From assembly GCF_002001085.1 (NCBI RefSeq), contig NZ_MUNU01000013.1, positions 124,001 through 188,000 on the forward strand: a DNA stretch of 64,000 nt, in the 5' to 3' direction. The DNA comes from Rhodanobacter sp. B05. GTDB taxonomy: Bacteria; Pseudomonadota; Gammaproteobacteria; Xanthomonadales; Rhodanobacteraceae. A model generated the notes under the pieces. It ran no database searches, was not told where the DNA came from, and worked only from the letters and a program-made list of their open reading frames with translations. Made by a program: the position numbers and the translations under genes. Below, in pieces: positions 17,355 to 26,243 of the stretch. The first letter of the stretch is position 1; every line of letters starts with the position of its first letter.

Positions 17355-17376
17355 AAATGTGATGCAAATCACATTT
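17355..17376. promoter_or_regulatory. CRP/Clp-type binding site
   Basis: The half-sites TGTGA (17358-17362) and TCACA (17369-17373) are 6 bp apart. Flanking AAA and TTT complete a 22-bp nearly symmetric site, matching the CRP consensus in both half-sites. It is 35 bp past the amn stop and 327 bp before the TonB receptor start. Confidence 0.75.
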
Positions 17377-17703
17377 TCACGCCTTCCTCTCACGAGGTGA
17401 GCGATATATATGTAATAAATTCGTTTAAAAAATATAAATTAAAAGTAATAAAGCCCACGCGGAGCCTCCCCTGATGAGGGTCAACCAGCCGCCTGATGCC
17501 CACTTCGAGGGAACGGCCGCTGAACAAACCGGAGCGGAAAAACGTGTGGAGTGAGTTCACATAGCGTTATTTGCCTGTTAGTATCGGCGCGGATCGGGAG
17601 TTCATGGGTCCGAAACCCATCGGCTTGGGAACGGGCCGGGTCGCAATTCTGGGCAGAACAGGTTCTGGCCCATGACAAAAAAATTAACCGGAGGGTGTCT
17701 TAA
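17377..17703 (+). other. long AT-rich promoter/leader region of the TonB receptor gene
   Basis: A conspicuous AT-rich block (about 17404-17452, with TATATA, TAATAA and A tracts) sits about 40-90 bp after the CRP-like site and is the likely core promoter. About 250 bp of leader follow, including the hairpin ATGGGT-CCGAA-ACCCAT (17604-17620). A strong Shine-Dalgarno GGAGGGTG lies 6 nt before the receptor ATG. No ORF with protein-like sequence is seen here. The length leaves room for RNA-level control, but I recognise no known riboswitch. Confidence 0.55.
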
Positions 17704-20625
17704 ATGAAACTTGGGGTCTCAAAACTTTCTTCGGCAGTCCGCCTGGCGCTTTCGCTGGGTGCTGTCATCGCGGTCGGTGCCTCGGGCACGGCCTTCGCCC
17801 AGGATACGGGCACTCAGGATGCGGCCAGTCAGCCCAGCGCCAAGAAGGCGCAGACGCTGCAGACGGTCGTGGTCACCGGCTCGAACATCCGCCGTGTGGA
17901 TCTGGAAACCTCCAACCCGGTGCTGACCATCGACCGCGCGCAGATCCAGGCCAGCGGCAAGCAGACGCTAGGCGATCTGGTGCAGTCGATCCCGGCGATC
18001 GCCGGCGCGGCCACCAACCCGAACGTCAACAACGGCGGCGGCAACGGTGCATCGACCGTCTCGCTGCGCGGCCTGGGCTCCAACCGCACCCTGATCCTGA
18101 TCGACGGCAAGCGCGTACTGAACAACGACATCAACGCGATCCCGGCCAGCATGGTCGAGCGCATCGACGTGCTGAAGGACGGCGCCTCGGCGACCTACGG
18201 TTCCGATGCGATCGGCGGCGTGGTGAACTTCATCATGCGCAAGGATTTCCAGGGCGCCCAGGTCAGCGTCAACTACGGCGAGTCGGATCGCTCCGACGGC
18301 GCGCAGAAGGGTTTCGCAGCCACCTTCGGTACCTCTTCGGACAAGGGCAACATCGTTGCCGGCATCGACTACAACCACTTCGACGCGGTCTCCTCAGGCA
18401 ATCGCGACTTCTCCAAGTACGCCACCTACCTGTATTCGGGCTCGGTGTTCAATGCCGGTTCCAGCCGCAACCCAAACGGTCGCGCCTACCTGGCTCCACG
18501 GAATGGCGGTGGCAGTGTCACGCTGGCCGGCCCGCAGCCTGGCACCACCACCGCCGCTGACTACCGCCCCTACAACGGTCGTACCGACGCGTACAATTAC
18601 GCCGCGCTGAACCTGATCCAGACCCCGCAGGAGCGTACCAACGTCTTCGTGCTGGGCAGCTACAACCTCACGGACAACGTGACGGCGTACATGGATGCGT
18701 TCTACAACAAGACCACCTCGCATGCGGCCCTCGCTCCGCTGCCGTTCGACGCCAACTCCGATGGCGTGCTGATCTCGAAGGACAACTACTACAACCCGTT
18801 CAAGCAGGACTTCGGTCCAGGCAGCGAGATCGATCCGACGACGGGCAAGCCCACCGTCTACAACTACCTGACCCGCTTCGTCCCGCTGGGTCAGCGCGTG
18901 CTTGACTACTCCACCACCACCGGTCAGATTGTCGCCGGCCTGAAGGGTAACTTCGGCCAGGACAGCAGCTGGCAGTGGAATGCCGACCTGAACTATGGTC
19001 ACCAGAGCACGCAGCAGCGGAGCCCGGGCTACATCTATTACGCCGGCCTGAAGTCTGCGCTGGGTCCGTCGTTCCTGGATCCGACCACCGGCGTGGTCAC
19101 CTGCGGCACGGCCGCCGCCCCGATCGCAGGCTGCACTCCGCTCAACATCTTCAACCTGAACGATCCGCAGACGCTGGCCACCCTGAAGCAGTTCGCCGCG
19201 GCGCCGTTCTACCACACCCTGCAGACCTCGCGTCGTGCCGAAATCAGCGCGAACGGCAGCCTGTGGGACCTGCCGGCCGGCACCATGCAGCTGGCCGTGG
19301 GCGGTTCGTATGACAAGGAATACCAGAACTATCAGGTCGACTACATCGCGCAGACGCGCGGTCAGGATGGCACCTGCTTCATCTCGCAGGAAGCCTGCTC
19401 GACCCCGCTGAGCGGCGGCTTCACCGACAAGGAAGTGTATTTCGAGCTGTTCACCCCGATCCTCGCGGATGTGCCGTTCGCCAAGTCGCTGAACGTGACG
19501 ATCGGCTCGCGCTTCTCGCAGTACAACACCGCCGGCAGCAGCTGGAACCAGAAGTTCGCCGTGGAGTGGCGTCCGGTCACCGACCTGCTGCTGCGTGGCA
19601 CGGTTGCCGGCGTGTTCCGCGCGCCGAACATCAACGAGTTGTACAACGGTGCTGCCGGCAGTGCGCCGCAATTCGCCGACCCCTGCCGCGGTCTGACAGC
19701 GGCGGAGCTGGCGACGCACGCCGTCGCCTGCCAGAACGTGCCGGTCAATTACGCCGGTACCGGCCTCTCGCAGACTACCGGTGTGGTCTCCGGCTCCGTG
19801 GCCGCGGGCGTCAACCTGAAGCCCGAGCACGGCAAGTCGTATGACTACGGCTTCGTGTACGATCCGAGCTATGCCCCGGGCCTGTCCTTCGAGGCGGATC
19901 TGTGGCGAGTCACGCTGGACGACACGATCACCGCGATCGGCGCGCAGACGGTCATGAACAGCTGCTTCGCCAACGACGCCAGCCAGTTCTGTCCACTGAT
20001 CCACCGTCTGGGCAGCGGCGACATCGGCTTCATCGCCGAGCCGACCGTCAACCTGGGCAAGCTGAACACCAAGGGCATCGACTCCAGCCTCAAGTACAAG
20101 ATCCCGCACTTCGACGTGTTCGGTCAGAACTACGGCGACTTGGCCGTGTCGCTGGATTCCACTTACCTCATCCGCTACAACAACGACACCGCGCCGGGCC
20201 AGCCGGGTGACACGGTCTTCCACATGGCCGGCCACTACAACAACCAGAGTGAGTACGGCAACTACACCCGCTGGCGCGGGCTGGCCCAGGTGAACTGGAA
20301 CAATGGCCCGTGGAGCGCCAACTACAACGTGCGCTACATCGGGTCGGTGAAGGTGGGCTGGCCGCTGGGCGCTCCGGAAGGCGTGTCCGGCGATCCGGGC
20401 ATCCCGGGCACGGTGCTCAGGTATGCGCCGGTGATGTATCACAACCTGTCGTTCGGCTATAACCTGGCCGCGTACCATACCCGTTTCGACGTGGGCGTGA
20501 ACAACCTGTTCGACAAGCAGCCGCCGTTGATGTACCAGAACAACGTGCTGAACTCGAATACCGACACCAACACGTACGAGACCATTGGCCGTTACTTCTG
20601 GGGCCGCGTGACCGTGACGTTCTGA
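17704..20625 (+). CDS. TonB-dependent outer-membrane receptor
   Basis: A 973-residue protein with a signal peptide ending AFA (cleavage after about residue 32). A TonB-box-like stretch TLQTVVVTGSNI is followed by a plug domain (about 50-170, with NNGGGNGASTVSLRGLG and RIDVLKDGASATYGSDAIGGVVNFIMRK). A long beta-barrel ends GRYFWGRVTVTF, with a C-terminal Phe for Bam recognition. It resembles the large Xanthomonad/Caulobacter receptors with Gly/Asn-rich plugs, not classic siderophore receptors. Substrate unknown; no TonB/ExbBD pair is adjacent. The CRP-like site and long leader upstream suggest catabolite control. An intrinsic terminator follows, before sulfotransferase and oxygenase genes. Confidence 0.95.
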   Translation: MKLGVSKLSSAVRLALSLGAVIAVGASGTAFAQDTGTQDAASQPSAKKAQTLQTVVVTGSNIRRVDLETSNPVLTIDRAQIQASGKQTLGDLVQSIPAIAGAATNPNVNNGGGNGASTVSLRGLGSNRTLILIDGKRVLNNDINAIPASMVERIDVLKDGASATYGSDAIGGVVNFIMRKDFQGAQVSVNYGESDRSDGAQKGFAATFGTSSDKGNIVAGIDYNHFDAVSSGNRDFSKYATYLYSGSVFNAGSSRNPNGRAYLAPRNGGGSVTLAGPQPGTTTAADYRPYNGRTDAYNYAALNLIQTPQERTNVFVLGSYNLTDNVTAYMDAFYNKTTSHAALAPLPFDANSDGVLISKDNYYNPFKQDFGPGSEIDPTTGKPTVYNYLTRFVPLGQRVLDYSTTTGQIVAGLKGNFGQDSSWQWNADLNYGHQSTQQRSPGYIYYAGLKSALGPSFLDPTTGVVTCGTAAAPIAGCTPLNIFNLNDPQTLATLKQFAAAPFYHTLQTSRRAEISANGSLWDLPAGTMQLAVGGSYDKEYQNYQVDYIAQTRGQDGTCFISQEACSTPLSGGFTDKEVYFELFTPILADVPFAKSLNVTIGSRFSQYNTAGSSWNQKFAVEWRPVTDLLLRGTVAGVFRAPNINELYNGAAGSAPQFADPCRGLTAAELATHAVACQNVPVNYAGTGLSQTTGVVSGSVAAGVNLKPEHGKSYDYGFVYDPSYAPGLSFEADLWRVTLDDTITAIGAQTVMNSCFANDASQFCPLIHRLGSGDIGFIAEPTVNLGKLNTKGIDSSLKYKIPHFDVFGQNYGDLAVSLDSTYLIRYNNDTAPGQPGDTVFHMAGHYNNQSEYGNYTRWRGLAQVNWNNGPWSANYNVRYIGSVKVGWPLGAPEGVSGDPGIPGTVLRYAPVMYHNLSFGYNLAAYHTRFDVGVNNLFDKQPPLMYQNNVLNSNTDTNTYETIGRYFWGRVTVTF

Positions 20626-20643
20626 TCCAGAACTTAGCGTCGC

Positions 20644-20649
20644 TATAAT
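20644..20649 (+). promoter_or_regulatory. consensus -10 hexamer at the edge of the receptor terminator
   Basis: TATAAT lies one nucleotide before the terminator stem (20651). A start 6-8 nt downstream would fall inside the left arm of the hairpin. The only -35 candidate, TTCTGA at 20620-20625, is poor (3 of 6 matches) and overlaps the receptor stop codon. Confidence 0.5.
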
Positions 20650-20650
20650 C

Positions 20651-20684
20651 GAACCGCGCGGTGCAAGCCGCGCGGTTCTTTTTT
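20651..20684 (+). terminator. intrinsic terminator of the TonB receptor gene
   Basis: A perfect 11-bp stem (GAACCGCGCGG / CCGCGCGGTTC) with a 6-nt loop TGCAAG is followed immediately by six Ts. This is a textbook Rho-independent terminator, 25 bp past the receptor stop. Confidence 0.92.
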
Positions 20685-20697
20685 GAGTGGAACGGAT

Positions 20698-22533
20698 TTG
20701 CCCCATACGTACACTGACATCCCACGGATCCTGTCGAGTCTCGAAGAAGGCCGCGTGCAGCAGGCCGAGCAGGCCTGCGAGAACTTGCTGCGAGCCAGGC
20801 CGGATGACGAAGACGGGTTGACCGTGCTGGGCATCGCCCTGCAGCGGTACGGCCGGCCCCTGCGGGCGGCCGCTGTCTACGAGTACCTGCTCGACCGCCA
20901 CCCCGGGCGCATCGGTCACTGGGGTAACCTCGGCAATGCCTTGCGCGAGGCGGGTCGTCACGAGGACGCCGAACAGGCCTATCTGACGGCACTGAAACTG
21001 GCGCCCGACGACCCCATGACCCAGGGCAACCTCGGTCTGCTGTACAAGGAGCGTGCCGATTATGCCAAGGCGCGAACCTGCCTGGTCGCCGCCGCAAGGC
21101 TGCTCCCCGATGATCACGAGATTTGCATCTATGCAGCGATGGCCTGTTGCGAGTGCGGCGACAACCTTGGTGCCGGCCAGCTCACGGCGGGCTGGCGCCG
21201 GTGGTTGCCGCTGGACACGGATCTGAGTATCGACCTGGCCTGGATGTTCACCCAGCTGGGGCGGATTTCCGAAGCCGAGGAACTGCTTGGCGGTTCCCTG
21301 CAACTGAACGGCGCCAGGCCGCGCACGCTGGCACGTCTGATCGGATTGCTGGAACGGGTCAATCGATTGGACGAGGCGGATCGGATCCTGGCCACGCTGC
21401 CGGACCCGCAGACCCTGTCCGATCCGGTGGACCGACTGGAGGTCATCAGTGCGCTCGGCGTCATGGCCATGCGCGGCCGGGATCCGGTCGCGGCCCGGCG
21501 CCTGCTGGAGCGCCTGCTGGAGATGACCAGCGATCCGGCCCACCGCGGCAACCTCTACTTCAGCATGGCCAAGGCCTGCGACAAACAGGGCGATGCCGAC
21601 GCGGCGATGGAAGCGCTGGCCAAGGCGCACGCCGCGCAGATGGTCAGGGCGGCCCAGCTTGTGCCCGAGCTGCTGTTGCCCGGCGTGCAGCCACTGTCGC
21701 CGGCCCTGATCCGCATGACCAGTGCCCAGGTGGCCGGTTGGGAACCGCCCGCGCGATCGAACGGGGACCCACAGTCGCCGATCTTCGTGGTGGGATTCCC
21801 GCGTTCCGGCACCACCATGCTGGAGCAGATGCTCGATGCCCACCCGGCGCTGACTTCGATGGACGAACAGCCGTTCCTCCAGGGCGTCTCCGAGAAGGTG
21901 GTCGGGTTGGGCATGGAATATCCGGAGGGTATCGGCGCGCTCGATCCGGGGATGTGCGCGATGTTGATCCGGCACTATTGGGAGCAGGCAAGCAGTGTGG
22001 TCAAGCTGGAACCGGGCCAGCGGCTGGTCGACAAGAACCCGCTCAACCTGCTGCATCTGCCCTTGATCAGCCGGCTGTTTCCCGATGCGCCGATCATTCT
22101 GGCGCTGCGTCATCCGTGTGACGTGATTCTGAGCTGCTACATGCAGAACTTCCGTGCGCCAGGATTCCAGACCCTGTGTTCGTCGCTCGAGCGGCTGGCG
22201 GGTGGCTATGTCAATGGCATGAACTACTGGGTCTATCACGAGCAGTTGCTGAAGCCGCGGGTGTTGCATTTGCGCTACGAGGATCTGCTGGATCGCTTCG
22301 ATGCCGAAGTCGAGCGCATCGGCCGTTTCATCGGGGTCGAGGATGCTGCGCCGTTGCGCAATTTCCACCAGCATGCGCAACAGAAGGGTTTCATCAGCAC
22401 GCCGAGCTATGCCCAGGTAACGCAGCCGCCGAACAAGCAGGCGGTGGGTCGCTGGCGCCGCTACGAGAAGGCATTCCGACCCCTGCTGCCGGGGCTTAAG
22501 GACATCATGGAGCACTGGGGTTATGACCGCTGA
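20698..22533 (+). CDS. TPR-containing sulfotransferase (first copy)
   Basis: A 611-residue protein with no signal peptide. The N-terminal half is tetratricopeptide repeats (for example HWGNLGNALREAGRHEDAEQAYLTALKLAPDD spans one full repeat). The C-terminal half is a PAPS-dependent sulfotransferase: FVVGFPRSGTTMLEQMLDAHP at about residue 367 is the 5'-phosphosulfate loop, and ALRHPCDVILSCYMQNF is the 3'-phosphate region. The combination resembles tyrosylprotein sulfotransferases with a protein-docking TPR. No ATG fits; the TTG at 20698 follows GTGGA, while a TTG at 20683 lies within the terminator. Its 3' end overlaps the oxygenase gene by 11 bp. Confidence 0.9.
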   Translation: MPHTYTDIPRILSSLEEGRVQQAEQACENLLRARPDDEDGLTVLGIALQRYGRPLRAAAVYEYLLDRHPGRIGHWGNLGNALREAGRHEDAEQAYLTALKLAPDDPMTQGNLGLLYKERADYAKARTCLVAAARLLPDDHEICIYAAMACCECGDNLGAGQLTAGWRRWLPLDTDLSIDLAWMFTQLGRISEAEELLGGSLQLNGARPRTLARLIGLLERVNRLDEADRILATLPDPQTLSDPVDRLEVISALGVMAMRGRDPVAARRLLERLLEMTSDPAHRGNLYFSMAKACDKQGDADAAMEALAKAHAAQMVRAAQLVPELLLPGVQPLSPALIRMTSAQVAGWEPPARSNGDPQSPIFVVGFPRSGTTMLEQMLDAHPALTSMDEQPFLQGVSEKVVGLGMEYPEGIGALDPGMCAMLIRHYWEQASSVVKLEPGQRLVDKNPLNLLHLPLISRLFPDAPIILALRHPCDVILSCYMQNFRAPGFQTLCSSLERLAGGYVNGMNYWVYHEQLLKPRVLHLRYEDLLDRFDAEVERIGRFIGVEDAAPLRNFHQHAQQKGFISTPSYAQVTQPPNKQAVGRWRRYEKAFRPLLPGLKDIMEHWGYDR

Positions 22534-23131
22534 GCAGGCGTTGCCGGGCAACCCGCCGATAACCGACCTGCGCAACTATGTGCAGACCTTCGATGCCACG
22601 CTGCCGGCGGATTTCTGTCGGCAGCTGATCGCCGAGTTTCTGCAGACGACCGCACAGCACGTGGTGCGCAAGCCCGGTTGGCGCGCCGGCCTCGATGCCA
22701 GCGCCTGGACCGAGTTGGATGTTTCGGCGCTGGCCGACGATGCCTTCAAGGGCTTTTTCTACAAGCAGATCGAGGACCATCTCGCGCTGTACAACCAGCG
22801 CCTTGGCCTCACCCTGCCGGTCCCCAACACGCCGCAGGTCTCGCAGATGCGCATCAAGCGCTATGTGGCTGGCACGGGCGAGGGGTTCCAGCCTCACTTC
22901 GACGCGATCTACGAGGTGGCGCATCGTTACCTGGTGTTCCTGTGGTATCTGAATGACGTCGAGGAAGGTGGCGAGACCGAGTTCTGCGACCTCGGTATCA
23001 AGGTGCCGGCACGCACCGGCAAGCTGCTGGTGTTTCCGCCGTACTGGATGTTCCAGCATGCAGGCCGACCGCCGATCTCGGGCGACAAGTACATCCTGTC
23101 GATGTACCTGCTGTTTCCGCAGCAGCGTTGA
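22523..23131 (+). CDS. 2-oxoglutarate/Fe(II)-dependent oxygenase (prolyl-4-hydroxylase-like)
   Basis: A 202-residue double-stranded beta-helix oxygenase without a signal peptide. The iron triad is visible: His125 and Asp127 in FQPHFDAI, and His179 in MFQHAGRPP. Lys189 (GDKYILSMYL) is placed to bind the 2-oxoglutarate carboxylate. NDVEEGGETEFCDLGIKVPARTGKLLVFPP is characteristic of P4H-type hydroxylases. The expected reaction is hydroxylation of a peptide or small molecule with decarboxylation of 2OG; the target is unknown. The ATG overlaps the stop region of the preceding sulfotransferase, so the two are coupled. Confidence 0.9.
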   Translation: MTAEQALPGNPPITDLRNYVQTFDATLPADFCRQLIAEFLQTTAQHVVRKPGWRAGLDASAWTELDVSALADDAFKGFFYKQIEDHLALYNQRLGLTLPVPNTPQVSQMRIKRYVAGTGEGFQPHFDAIYEVAHRYLVFLWYLNDVEEGGETEFCDLGIKVPARTGKLLVFPPYWMFQHAGRPPISGDKYILSMYLLFPQQR

Positions 23132-23183
23132 TGCCGAGTTGCCCTCGCCCGCCATGGACTCGTCATTACATGAAGCGGACACC

Positions 23184-23204
23184 CGTCGATCGGACTTATC
23201 GACG
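23184..23204 (+). other. short hairpin between oxygenase and second sulfotransferase genes
   Basis: A 7-bp stem CGTCGAT / ATCGACG around a CGGACTT loop, 17 nt before the next start codon. No T tract follows, so it is not a terminator; it may lower or tune translation of the second sulfotransferase. Confidence 0.3.
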
Positions 23205-23221
23205 TTGCAGGCAGCGTGCCC

Positions 23222-24910
23222 ATGAGCGGGAATGACGGTCGGGTCTCGCATGGATCATCCGTGACGGCCGCGCAGGCCGAGTGGCGGCCCTCGGCCGCGC
23301 TCGTCGCGCGGGTCGATCGTTACCTCGGCCATGCGGCGGCGATGGGTTCGCAAGCGGCTCTGCAGGCGGCGCGGGCGGACCTGGGGGATGCGCCGGCGGC
23401 GGAATGGCGCGATGTCGCGCGCCAGTTTCTGCAGCGAGGTCAGCCGCTCTTTGCGGCAGCCTTGTTGGAGCTTGCGCGGCAGCAGCAACCGGCGGACTCA
23501 TCGCTGCGTTACTGGCTCGCGCAGGCGTTCTGGCAGGCTGGCGAAACCGGTCGGGCCGAGGCGGAGCTGCGCGGACTTCTGGCTGGCGGGACCCATTCGG
23601 CCGCCAGCTGGCTGCTCGCCGAGGTGCTGCGCGCCGAGGGCCGCCTCAATGCGGCGGCAGCCTGCGTGGCGACCGTTGCGCGGGGGACGACCGACGACAT
23701 GGATGGCGTGCTCGCCTGTATCCAGTTCGTGCGCGAGTCCCATCAGCACGCCCTCGCCGCCGAATTGTGCGAGGAACGATTGGCGCGCGGAGCAGGCGAC
23801 CCGCGGCTGCACGCCGTGGCTGGCCAGATCGAGCAGGAGCTGGGACATTTCGATCGGGCGCGTGCCCACTATGCTGCCGCGCTGGCCGGTGGCATCGACC
23901 TGAACGCGTGGTTCGTGCCCGGATCGCTGGCATCCCTGCAACGCTATGCCGATCGCCAGCATGCGGATTTCGCCCTGTTCGACGCCCATCTCCGCGATCG
24001 CACCCTGTCCGCGCGCGCGCGCGCCTCGGTCCTGTTTGCACTGGGCAAGGCCTGTGATGACATCGGCGCTTACGCCGATGCGGCGCACGCCTGGCGGCAA
24101 GCCAATACCTTGACGCGCCAGACGGTCAGCTGGTCGCGAACACGCTGGCGGGATTTCGTGCGAGATCGCCTGTCCGCCCCACCACTGCAATCCCGTTCTG
24201 CCCGTGTCGATGGCGTGCCGATTTTCGTGGTCGGTTTGCCGCGTACCGGCACCACCTTGATGGCCGAACTGCTTGGCCGCCATCCTGATGTGTGCAATCG
24301 CGGCGAGTTGCCGACGCTGGAATTTCTCGTGCAGCGCCTGGCCGGCCTGGCACCGGCGCAGCGAACGGCACATCTGCAGGAGGCGGCCGGGATCTATCTG
24401 ACCCACTTGCGCCGCGATGATCCACCGGCGAGCCATTACGTCGACAAGAATCCGCTCAATTTCCGCTACCTGGATCAGGTTGCGGCGATGTTCCCGCAGG
24501 CACGGGTCATCCACTGCCGACGCCAGCCGCGGGATACTGCGCTGTCGATCTGGAGCCAGCCGTTCGCACGGGACGACTATGCGTTTGCCAGGGACTTTGG
24601 CGACATCGCGGCGCTGATGGAAGGCTGCAACGAATTGATGAGGCATTGGCGGCAAACGCTGCCATTGCCCATCATCACGGTGGAGTACGAACAGCTGGTT
24701 GCGGATCCGGCAGCAACAGTGAAGGCCTTGTTGCCGCAGTTGGGGCTGTCCGCGCATAACTCATCGGAGCCGAGGGCGAGCACATCCACGCCGATCACCT
24801 CGGCCAGCCTGTGGCAGGCGCGTCAGCCGGTGCACCAACGCTCGGTGTCGCGCTGGCGCCACTATGCGGAGTTGTTGCCCGAACTGGTCGAGTTGTTCGC
24901 CGAGGCGTGA
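23222..24910 (+). CDS. TPR-like sulfotransferase (second copy)
   Basis: A 562-residue protein with helical, TPR-like repeats over the first about 320 residues. A sulfotransferase domain starts at VPIFVVGLPRTGTTLMAELL (about 333-352). It retains the 5'-phosphosulfate loop, the YVDKNPLNFRYL segment also seen in the first copy (LVDKNPLNLLHL), and HCRRQPRDTALSIW for the 3'-phosphate. The repeats are far more diverged than in the first copy, so the two probably have different targets. The start is the ATG at 23222; a GTG two codons upstream is possible. Converges on the beta-hydroxylase gene with a 25-bp gap. Confidence 0.88.
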   Translation: MSGNDGRVSHGSSVTAAQAEWRPSAALVARVDRYLGHAAAMGSQAALQAARADLGDAPAAEWRDVARQFLQRGQPLFAAALLELARQQQPADSSLRYWLAQAFWQAGETGRAEAELRGLLAGGTHSAASWLLAEVLRAEGRLNAAAACVATVARGTTDDMDGVLACIQFVRESHQHALAAELCEERLARGAGDPRLHAVAGQIEQELGHFDRARAHYAAALAGGIDLNAWFVPGSLASLQRYADRQHADFALFDAHLRDRTLSARARASVLFALGKACDDIGAYADAAHAWRQANTLTRQTVSWSRTRWRDFVRDRLSAPPLQSRSARVDGVPIFVVGLPRTGTTLMAELLGRHPDVCNRGELPTLEFLVQRLAGLAPAQRTAHLQEAAGIYLTHLRRDDPPASHYVDKNPLNFRYLDQVAAMFPQARVIHCRRQPRDTALSIWSQPFARDDYAFARDFGDIAALMEGCNELMRHWRQTLPLPIITVEYEQLVADPAATVKALLPQLGLSAHNSSEPRASTSTPITSASLWQARQPVHQRSVSRWRHYAELLPELVELFAEA

Positions 24911-24935
24911 GTCAGCGGAAGTCGCGCGTGGCGCC

Positions 24936-26243
24936 TTACCGCGCGGCGCTGACGTTGAAGTCGCCGATCGCTTCGACCAGGTCGGTCACCGCGGCCTGCT
25001 CGGCCTCGCTGAGGTCGGGGTTCCAGCAGTCGAGGATCAGCACCACTCGCGTCTGGTCGCTGTGGTTCCAGGCTTCGTGTTCGAACGTGTCGTCGAAGGT
25101 GACGCAGCGGTCGGTTTGCCAGACGTGGGTTTCGCCGCCGACCCGCAACGCGCAGTCGGGAGGCACGATCAGCGGCAGGTGCGTCACCAGTCGGGTATTG
25201 GTGACGCCACGGTGGGGCAGGATGTGGGTTCCAGGGCGCAATACCGAAAACAGGGTTTCCGGGGCATGGTCGCGTATGCGCACCAGCGGGGTGGCATCGA
25301 GCAGGGCAGCGGTCTGCGGGCAGCGTGCGCAATGCTCCGCGTGGCGTTCGCCATGGCGAAAGAAGAAAAAGGCATCCCATGCCGCCGGACCCGGGCCGGA
25401 GGCACGAAGATAGCCTTCGGCTTCTTCGCGAAGACCCGTCTGCAGGAACGACTCCAGTGGTTCCCCGCGCTGGATGACCTCACGCAGTTCCGCGCGAATG
25501 CGTTCGCCGGCGGCCTCCAGCCCGGCTTGCCACGGGAAGCGCTCGCGCGCGTAGAACGGTTGCGGCGGCAGGCCCGGGAAGTACAGGAATTTCGGTGCCT
25601 GGCGCGGATCGGGGAGGTTGGTCGGCTGTTCGTGCAGATAAATGGCCAGGCACTGATCCACGCGTTTGAGCTCGTCGCTCCCATAGCGTTCGCGCAACGG
25701 CTGCAGCACCTCGTCGAATGCCTGTCGCCGACCTTGGTCGACGTAGTCCATCGCGTGCTTGACTGCTTCGCGCAACAGCGGCGCGGTCGAGGCATCGCTG
25801 AGCCAGCGTCCCTGCGACTGTGCCGTGTTGATGGCCCTGAAATAGGCAAGCAAGGCGTCATGGCCGTGGTTCAGGCGCTCGAGCGCCACGCCAAGCCGCA
25901 GGCGCGCCGTGAACGTATCCGGCGCGAGTTGCAGGCAGCGGCGCAGGCTTTGCGCGGCTGCCTCCGCGTCACCAGTCGACAACTGCAACGTACCCAGTTG
26001 CTGCAACACGGTCGGTTCATCGGGACGAGCCTGGTGCGCGGCGAGCAGCAGCGCGACAGCCTGTCCGGGTTGCCCGCGGCCGATGCAGGCGCGGGCGAGA
26101 AACTGCAGGGCTTCGGGATCGGCAGGATCGGCTTCGAGCAGGCGCAGAAAGGATTGTTCGGCCAGCAGCAGATCACGGTTCTGCAACTGGATGCGCGCCC
26201 GCTCGCGGTAATCGATTTGACCGTTGCCGTCTGGTTTGCTCAT
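24936..26243 (-). CDS. TPR-fused aspartyl/asparaginyl beta-hydroxylase-like protein
   Basis: A 435-residue cytosolic protein. Residues about 10-140 are TPR repeats (AEQSFLRLLEADPADPEALQFLARACIGRGQ and following). The C-terminal half is an Asp/Asn beta-hydroxylase jelly roll: HILPHRGVTNTRLVTHLPL supplies the first iron-binding His (about 343) and DDTFEHEAWNHSD the second (about 389), with Arg in the following strand for 2OG. These enzymes use two His as metal ligands. It is opposite in strand to the receptor cluster but immediately convergent with it. It follows the glutaredoxin gene by 52 bp and may share that transcript. Confidence 0.88.
   Translation of the reverse strand: MSKPDGNGQIDYRERARIQLQNRDLLLAEQSFLRLLEADPADPEALQFLARACIGRGQPGQAVALLLAAHQARPDEPTVLQQLGTLQLSTGDAEAAAQSLRRCLQLAPDTFTARLRLGVALERLNHGHDALLAYFRAINTAQSQGRWLSDASTAPLLREAVKHAMDYVDQGRRQAFDEVLQPLRERYGSDELKRVDQCLAIYLHEQPTNLPDPRQAPKFLYFPGLPPQPFYARERFPWQAGLEAAGERIRAELREVIQRGEPLESFLQTGLREEAEGYLRASGPGPAAWDAFFFFRHGERHAEHCARCPQTAALLDATPLVRIRDHAPETLFSVLRPGTHILPHRGVTNTRLVTHLPLIVPPDCALRVGGETHVWQTDRCVTFDDTFEHEAWNHSDQTRVVLILDCWNPDLSEAEQAAVTDLVEAIGDFNVSAAR

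Follow-up and report, generated by a model that had tools for sequence, protein, structure and literature searches.

Genes for a TonB-dependent receptor (TBDR) and for enzymes that add sulfate or hydroxyl groups travel together in the Xanthomonas group and in some of its relatives, and in one clade of these receptors a loop motif, P-x-D, tracks the presence of a prolyl 4-hydroxylase-like oxygenase gene (P4H). The locus from which the analysis started lies in a window of 64,000 nucleotides, the whole stretch analysed, from the 3.8 Mb genome of Rhodanobacter sp. B05, and comprises the receptor, two TPR-sulfotransferases (ST1 and ST2), P4H and a TPR-aspartyl/asparaginyl beta-hydroxylase (AspH) (Table 1). 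We read it, with a probability of about one half, as a receptor-plus-modifier module, in which P4H would hydroxylate the linked receptor and the sulfotransferases and AspH would modify further loop residues.

Table 1. Features of the receptor locus, in window positions.
Feature	Positions	Strand	Basis or remark
TBDR, TonB-dependent receptor, 973 aa	17704..20625	+	Pfam Plug and TonB_dep_Rec_b-barrel; proposed substrate
R255 codon, P4H-associated column	18466..18468	+	0.94 vs 0.02; predicted extracellular loop 227-308
A344-P-L-P347-F-D349 codons, P-x-D motif	18733..18750	+	Motif counts, n=104; predicted start of extracellular loop 344-397
Y443 codon, P4H-associated column	19030..19032	+	0.87 vs 0.05; start of predicted extracellular loop 440-501
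Terminator-like hairpin, 12-bp stem and T tract, between TBDR and ST1	20651..20684	+	Hairpin scan
ST1, TPR-sulfotransferase, 616 aa from TTG 20683	20683..22533	+	Pfam TPR and Sulfotransfer_3
P4H-like Fe(II)/2OG oxygenase, 202 aa	22523..23131	+	PF13640, 2OG-FeII_Oxy_3
ST2, second TPR-sulfotransferase, 564 aa	23216..24910	+	Pfam TPR and Sulfotransfer_3
TPR-aspartyl/asparaginyl beta-hydroxylase (AspH), 435 aa	24936..26243	-	TPR and Asp_Arg_Hydrox, PF05118 1e-49

All five genes of the original prediction, including the full-length receptor and the convergent AspH, were recovered as intact open reading frames in their predicted places, with the 11 bp overlap between ST1 and P4H borne out. ST1 is given a TTG start codon, although its start may be a later TTG at 20698 because the alignments of its relatives begin near residue 9. 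The intergenic gaps of the locus measure 57, 84 and 25 bp, and 383 bp are free upstream of the receptor. As had also been predicted, PAPS synthesis is absent from the cluster, the single APS-kinase match lying elsewhere in the genome, and no gene for a substrate peptide was seen in the cluster among open reading frames of at least 60 aa. Nor do the enzymes carry a signal peptide, as judged by eye, so that modification would come before export. The region holds five terminator-like sites against 6.3 expected from shuffles, a count that is not unusual by itself; a hairpin with a T tract was found at 61 of 95 TBDR-ST junctions, which are not all independent since some loci were counted twice, against 1.0 expected from base shuffles. 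Hairpins at these junctions may leave the receptor in excess over the enzymes.

Both sulfotransferases retain the PAPS-type loops (FPRSGTT and LPRTGTT) and the sulfotransferase domain. Their predicted likeness to tyrosylprotein sulfotransferases holds, in that these are the nearest solved sulfotransferases by sequence (TPST1/2), but the similarity is weak (E ~1e-8 to 1e-6) and ST1 and ST2 carry an added TPR domain. In P4H, the residues H125-x-D127, H179 and K189 are invariant across 23 aligned sequences, and the model has the fold of a peptidyl-prolyl 4-hydroxylase with the HxD...H and Lys pattern, its nearest folds being viral vCPH, the P4H enzymes of P. putida and B. anthracis, and PHD2. AspH combines a TPR domain with a PF05118 domain that keeps the Fe-ligand histidines, and its active site (HxG...FDDxFEH) is retained on alignment with solved AspH (1.6e-27). 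Human AspH is an enzyme of the endoplasmic reticulum that acts on EGF-like domains; the bacterial protein shares its domain order and active-site motifs but, by eye, has no signal peptide. An EGF-like spacing in one cysteine-bounded loop of the window receptor was considered and rejected: four loops were viewed, in a comparison that took every second sequence of a 64-member clade, and the spacing is not conserved.

AspH and the sulfotransferases could also modify lipids in the manner of LpxO or OlsC while the receptor is just co-regulated. AspH does match the NCBIfam profiles for OlsC (5e-32) and LpxO (5e-18); however, with 111 bits against a curated cut-off of 450 and 65 bits against 500, both matches fall far short. 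Since, in addition, the AspH domain matches a solved AspH that has an N-terminal TPR region, and the sulfotransferases lie closest to enzymes that sulfate protein tyrosines, we regard a lipid substrate as improbable. Fusions of Asp_Arg_Hydrox and sulfotransferase domains, a sign of coupled hydroxylation and sulfation, occur as two tandem open reading frames in this genome (L062:8137-12012, contig C15 at ~230.6-234.5 kb), where none of the genome's 35 Plug matches falls, and again inside a Steroidobacter-type cluster (L120).

Conserved linkage outside this genome, on which the original prediction was to stand or fall, is present, and both Xanthomonadales and Steroidobacter/Solimonas-type genomes show it strongly. 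The P4H subfamily was scanned with the alignment of 23 P4H sequences in one genome per species, and neighbouring genes were called with models built from hits of the same analysis. There were 149 stretches with a gene for a P4H relative, and the best 80 of them gave 79 P4H loci, mostly from these same groups, the nearest by P4H identity being those of Rhodanobacter. Among these 79 loci from the best 80 stretches, a sulfotransferase lies within 5 kb of P4H in 74 and within 200 bp in 70 (median gap to the nearest 4.5 bp, n=74), AspH lies within 5 kb in 48, and a TBDR within 5 kb in 64, usually with one sulfotransferase gene between it and P4H. The enzyme set differs between clusters while the TBDR is their commonest non-enzyme member. 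When the same set was restricted to the 57 loci with full 5-kb flanks, a sulfotransferase was found in 53, a TBDR in 51 and AspH in 38; six full-flank loci lacking a TBDR or a sulfotransferase are AspH-P4H pairs (L117, L119, L129 and L135) or ST-P4H pairs (L133 and L151). A second P4H-AspH pair occurs in this genome (contig C18, L031:9649-11558), with no sulfotransferase called nearby, and L032, L033, L117 and L135 hold similar pairs. Further hydroxylase types also appear in TBDR loci, namely a TPR and 2OG-FeII_Oxy_5 protein (L153:6981-8519) and an Ofd1-like 2OG oxygenase (L120:15773-16507).

A search from the sulfotransferase side gave the same picture. Of 109 ST1-like genes in 149 relatives, at least 78, from 55 genomes, have a TBDR no more than 600 bp away, directly upstream in at least 75; the 78 are a lower bound because scoring covered at most five candidate TBDRs in each genome, and some of the 31 genes without a listed TBDR within 600 bp are at contig ends. 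This genome contains 35 Plug-domain receptors and 13 sulfotransferase matches, and seven of its eight long non-fusion sulfotransferases (at least 523 aa) are clustered with a TBDR (two each in L057 and the window, one each in L058, L059 and L060, but not that of L061). On the receptor tree, those receptors of this genome that are linked to a sulfotransferase are spread over four groups. In its L060 cluster (TBDR-ST-AspH, contig C16), a methyltransferase gene lies directly 3' (L060:12138-12971), and elsewhere on that contig six related TBDRs are found in ~40 kb (L069/L070/L158, C16:145-190k), with no Sulfotransfer_3 match there.

Could the neighbourhood be coincidental, a hotspot that gathers unrelated genes? 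The module occupies one shared site in four Rhodanobacter/Dyella-type loci, and members of the P4H subfamily (at E below 1e-60) occur in only six of 45 genomes from the genus, counting this one. The same families are, however, linked in different genera as well, and with the genes arranged differently, and the linkage counts from the P4H side and the sulfotransferase side both contradict a hotspot, which we consider highly improbable.

The broader idea that TPR-sulfotransferases in general are tied to TBDRs was rejected. In a sample of the phylum, where Sulfotransfer_3 matched at 1e-15 or better in 90 of 150 genomes, 40 sulfotransferase loci were taken, one per genome with long contigs preferred; two came from the same order. 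A TBDR was present in 12 of these 40 stretches (10 within 150 bp) and absent from 28, with three stretches cut by contig ends and TPR domains not confirmed singly, as against 2 of 20 arbitrary control stretches from the first 20 genomes of the set. The contexts of TPR-sulfotransferases across the phylum otherwise vary (22 loci viewed). In three genomes (L182, L224 and L227), the TPR-sulfotransferase gene directly adjoins one for a short protein that carries a PCPCGSGKKYKKCC-like motif of SEC-C type, and in L213:1554-12910 a TPR-sulfotransferase stands among TPR-like genes with, by eye, a flagellin-like gene near, where flagellin modification is possible. Near the TBDR-associated clusters, a DUF4097 protein (for example L092:14380-15387, and 14 further loci) may be a positional neighbour, part of a regulator cassette or an alternative substrate, and L145:4231-5493, like six further loci, encodes an outer-membrane protein of the OmpA family that has thrombospondin type 3 repeats.

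The evidence that singles out the receptor came from an alignment of 104 receptors of the window's clade, 63 from P4H loci and 41 from TBDR-ST loci with no P4H in the stretch. P-x-D (residues 347 and 349) was present in 60 of the 63 receptors with P4H and in none of the 41 without, four of which come from genomes with a P4H elsewhere (G000, G025, G057 and G058). The three exceptions admit a post hoc explanation: in L133, P4H lies behind a second sulfotransferase, and L092_101 and L101_312 are second receptors of their loci. The alignment left out nine other-clade second receptors in P4H loci, none of which has P-x-D and which, counted in, would give 60 of 72, as well as eight TBDRs shorter than 800 aa in L077-L155 and TBDRs below ~900 aa in L228-L267. 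The contrast is seen within this genome too, where the P4H-linked receptor reads APLPFD and an ST-linked, P4H-free paralogue (C16:217914) reads APSPTAAG.

Presence of P4H changed about five times on the tree, and only about five independent changes carry the signal. Of every single column and i,i+2 pair tested, P-x-D differs most in frequency between receptors with and without P4H. With labels simulated on the tree under 4-6 or exactly five changes, and each simulation scored by its top feature, whether a single column or an i,i+2 pair, none of 4000 reached P-x-D and seven of 4000 reached the best single column; looser label simulations gave 0 of 4500 for the pair motif and 6 of 4500 for the best single column. 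By likelihood ratio P-x-D ranks first of 364 pair motifs (22.65), but T665 scores 22.64, weakly associated columns reach 19-27 with an AspH or extra-ST label, and P-x-D is unexceptional by this measure alone. Since unrelated labels give similar ratios, this Pagel-type ranking is weak and more weight was given to the simulations. Comparable columns were not found for the other enzymes in the 104-receptor alignment, either for AspH (best difference 0.52) or for the number of sulfotransferases or extra sulfotransferases, and no residue can be assigned to ST1 because all 104 receptors have a sulfotransferase called in their locus.

A prediction for further receptors was written beforehand, and receptors less than 90% identical to the training set were counted. 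All four held-out receptors with P4H have P-x-D (L269, L288, L289 and L290, with 60%, 80%, 58% and 56% identity to training); of the ten P4H-bearing places in the written prediction only L269 passed the identity filter, and L288-L290 were added when 10 genomes were searched subsequently. L270-L277 (more than 90% identical to training), the incomplete L268 and a second incomplete receptor in L274 were excluded. Among P4H-free receptors, P-x-D was found in none of the eight in L280-L287; L278 and L279, predicted to be without P-x-D, keep it and are misses, leaving eight of ten right, and they are quoted as cases, being 95% and 89% identical to training, respectively. In both of these Xanthomonas-type genomes a C-terminal P4H remnant of 34-36 residues lies downstream of the receptor (L278:4491-4598 and L279:14087-14188), which fits, as a post hoc explanation, a recent loss of P4H. 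In the G091 family (10 genomes), receptor and P4H occur together in three genomes and are both missing from seven; the two genes lie side by side in G102, are separated by 250 kb in G091 and are on separate contigs in G131.

The AF2 model of the receptor (pLDDT 81.6) has PfeA/PirA/FepA-type receptors as its top Foldseek matches, at 14-16% identity. By DSSP on this model, residues 347-349 are among the first of the long loop 344-397, which follows the strand 326-343, while R255 and Q300 fall within the stretch 227-308 and Y443 opens 440-501; such long loops would be extracellular by the usual TBDR topology. R255, Q300 and Y443 track P4H nearly as strongly as P-x-D, so that the two receptor types differ over the entire loop region, which is perhaps a ligand site.

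That several loop residues besides the proline track P4H bears on the main rival, in which the enzymes make or process a ligand of the receptor, be it a self-made metallophore-like or sulfated molecule or a peptide, and the loop signature binds its hydroxylated form. A multi-residue signature is explained equally well by modification of the ligand and by modification of the receptor. The clusters of a methanobactin genome-mining study reportedly hold both TonB-dependent proteins and sulfotransferases. The available text of such a study names both (PMC3621798), and in the part of the CciT-CciO paper at hand the authors' models have the dioxygenase make or oxidise the receptor substrate or remove an inhibitor (PMC12004947). 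However, in the mapped clusters, where most neighbours are without domain annotation, we noticed neither an NRPS or precursor peptide nor any exporter or inner-membrane transporter; the TPR domains would suggest protein substrates; and in the P4H-free L230, a single case, the proline is the motif residue that has been lost, with R255, Q300 and D349 kept. We thus regard a modified ligand as possible but doubtful.

Alternatively, the enzymes could act on a different protein, secreted or at the surface, for which the motif in the receptor loops may serve as a docking site. Candidates would be the DUF4097 protein, found in 15 loci and within 2 kb of a sulfotransferase or P4H in 14 of them, and the OmpA-family protein, found in seven loci and as close in four; the stretch shared by a TPR-sulfotransferase and a flagellin-like gene points the same way. 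The DUF4097 gene is, however, absent from the window locus, and it may be a mere positional neighbour since it often occurs with ECF sigma and anti-sigma-like genes beside a PEPCK-like gene. We consider such a protein an unlikely substrate.

The original prediction had named the receptor, a secreted peptide or the imported ligand as what the locus modifies. The receptor itself is now favoured because its loop motif tracks the P4H gene; hydroxylation and sulfation themselves we infer. The covariation with P-x-D suggests that P4H hydroxylates a prolyl residue in a protein, and the receptor would be that protein, with Pro347 rather than Asp349 as the probable site. Cytosolic P4H would hydroxylate Pro347, where the extracellular loop begins, while the receptor is still nascent or awaiting export; the TPR-sulfotransferases and TPR-AspH, which probably act on the same receptor, would modify other residues of its loops, among them possibly tyrosines or the newly added hydroxyl. 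Sulfation too would then target the receptor, which would reach the outer membrane in modified form. The fuller proposal, that the receptor is hydroxylated by P4H and AspH and O-sulfated by the TPR-sulfotransferases on its extracellular loops in the cytosol, with each enzyme matched to one receptor, is put forward tentatively.

In its gene arrangement the locus resembles CciT-CciO of Caulobacter, PiuA-PiuC and Fiu-YbiX, in which a TBDR gene adjoins, and is co-conserved with, that of a cytoplasmic 2OG/Fe(II) dioxygenase; conserved adjacency of this kind was seen in 64 of the 79 P4H loci (best 80 of 149 stretches), CciT-CciO being compared by gene arrangement and enzyme class. In contrast, the sulfotransferases and AspH of the window locus are absent from the available passages on CciT-CciO (PMC12004947). 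According to these passages, CciT function strictly requires cciO, the oxygenase acts on a ligand or inhibitor in all three models and on the receptor in none, and the authors call open the molecular reason why an outer-membrane receptor needs a cytosolic dioxygenase (PMC12004947); parts of a companion paper report that neither Fe nor Cu transport depends on CciO, whose function they give as unknown (PMC12004943). For bacterial sulfation, the accessible text on RaxX-RaxST of Xanthomonas describes an enzyme that sulfates the protein product of a neighbouring gene (PMC6637879). That product, RaxX, is a small peptide, unlike anything noticed beside the sulfotransferases of the window, which are of the TPR type. 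Likewise, the peptidyl-prolyl 4-hydroxylases are the closest folds to the window P4H, but its proposed partner is a membrane receptor, whereas titles of P4H structure entries name EF-Tu as a bacterial partner.

Among the titles and abstract openings searched, no report of a TPR-sulfotransferase/TBDR module was found, and passages of a text on post-translational modification enzymes contain neither TPR nor TonB (PMC4414956). Relative to the parts of the texts compared, the company of sulfotransferases and AspH and a receptor motif that tracks the hydroxylase are new. TonB-dependent receptors serve nutrient uptake, and phages, bacteriocins and siderophore drugs also enter the cell through them. 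Modification of their loops may affect ligand binding, escape from phages or bacteriocins, or signalling. If true, modification of the receptor would add a fourth model to the open question of CciT-CciO and PiuA-PiuC, and a loop motif whose presence follows that of the hydroxylase gene offers a single-residue test of that answer. If sulfation is added, this would be, as far as the literature search shows, a new kind of outer-membrane protein modification.
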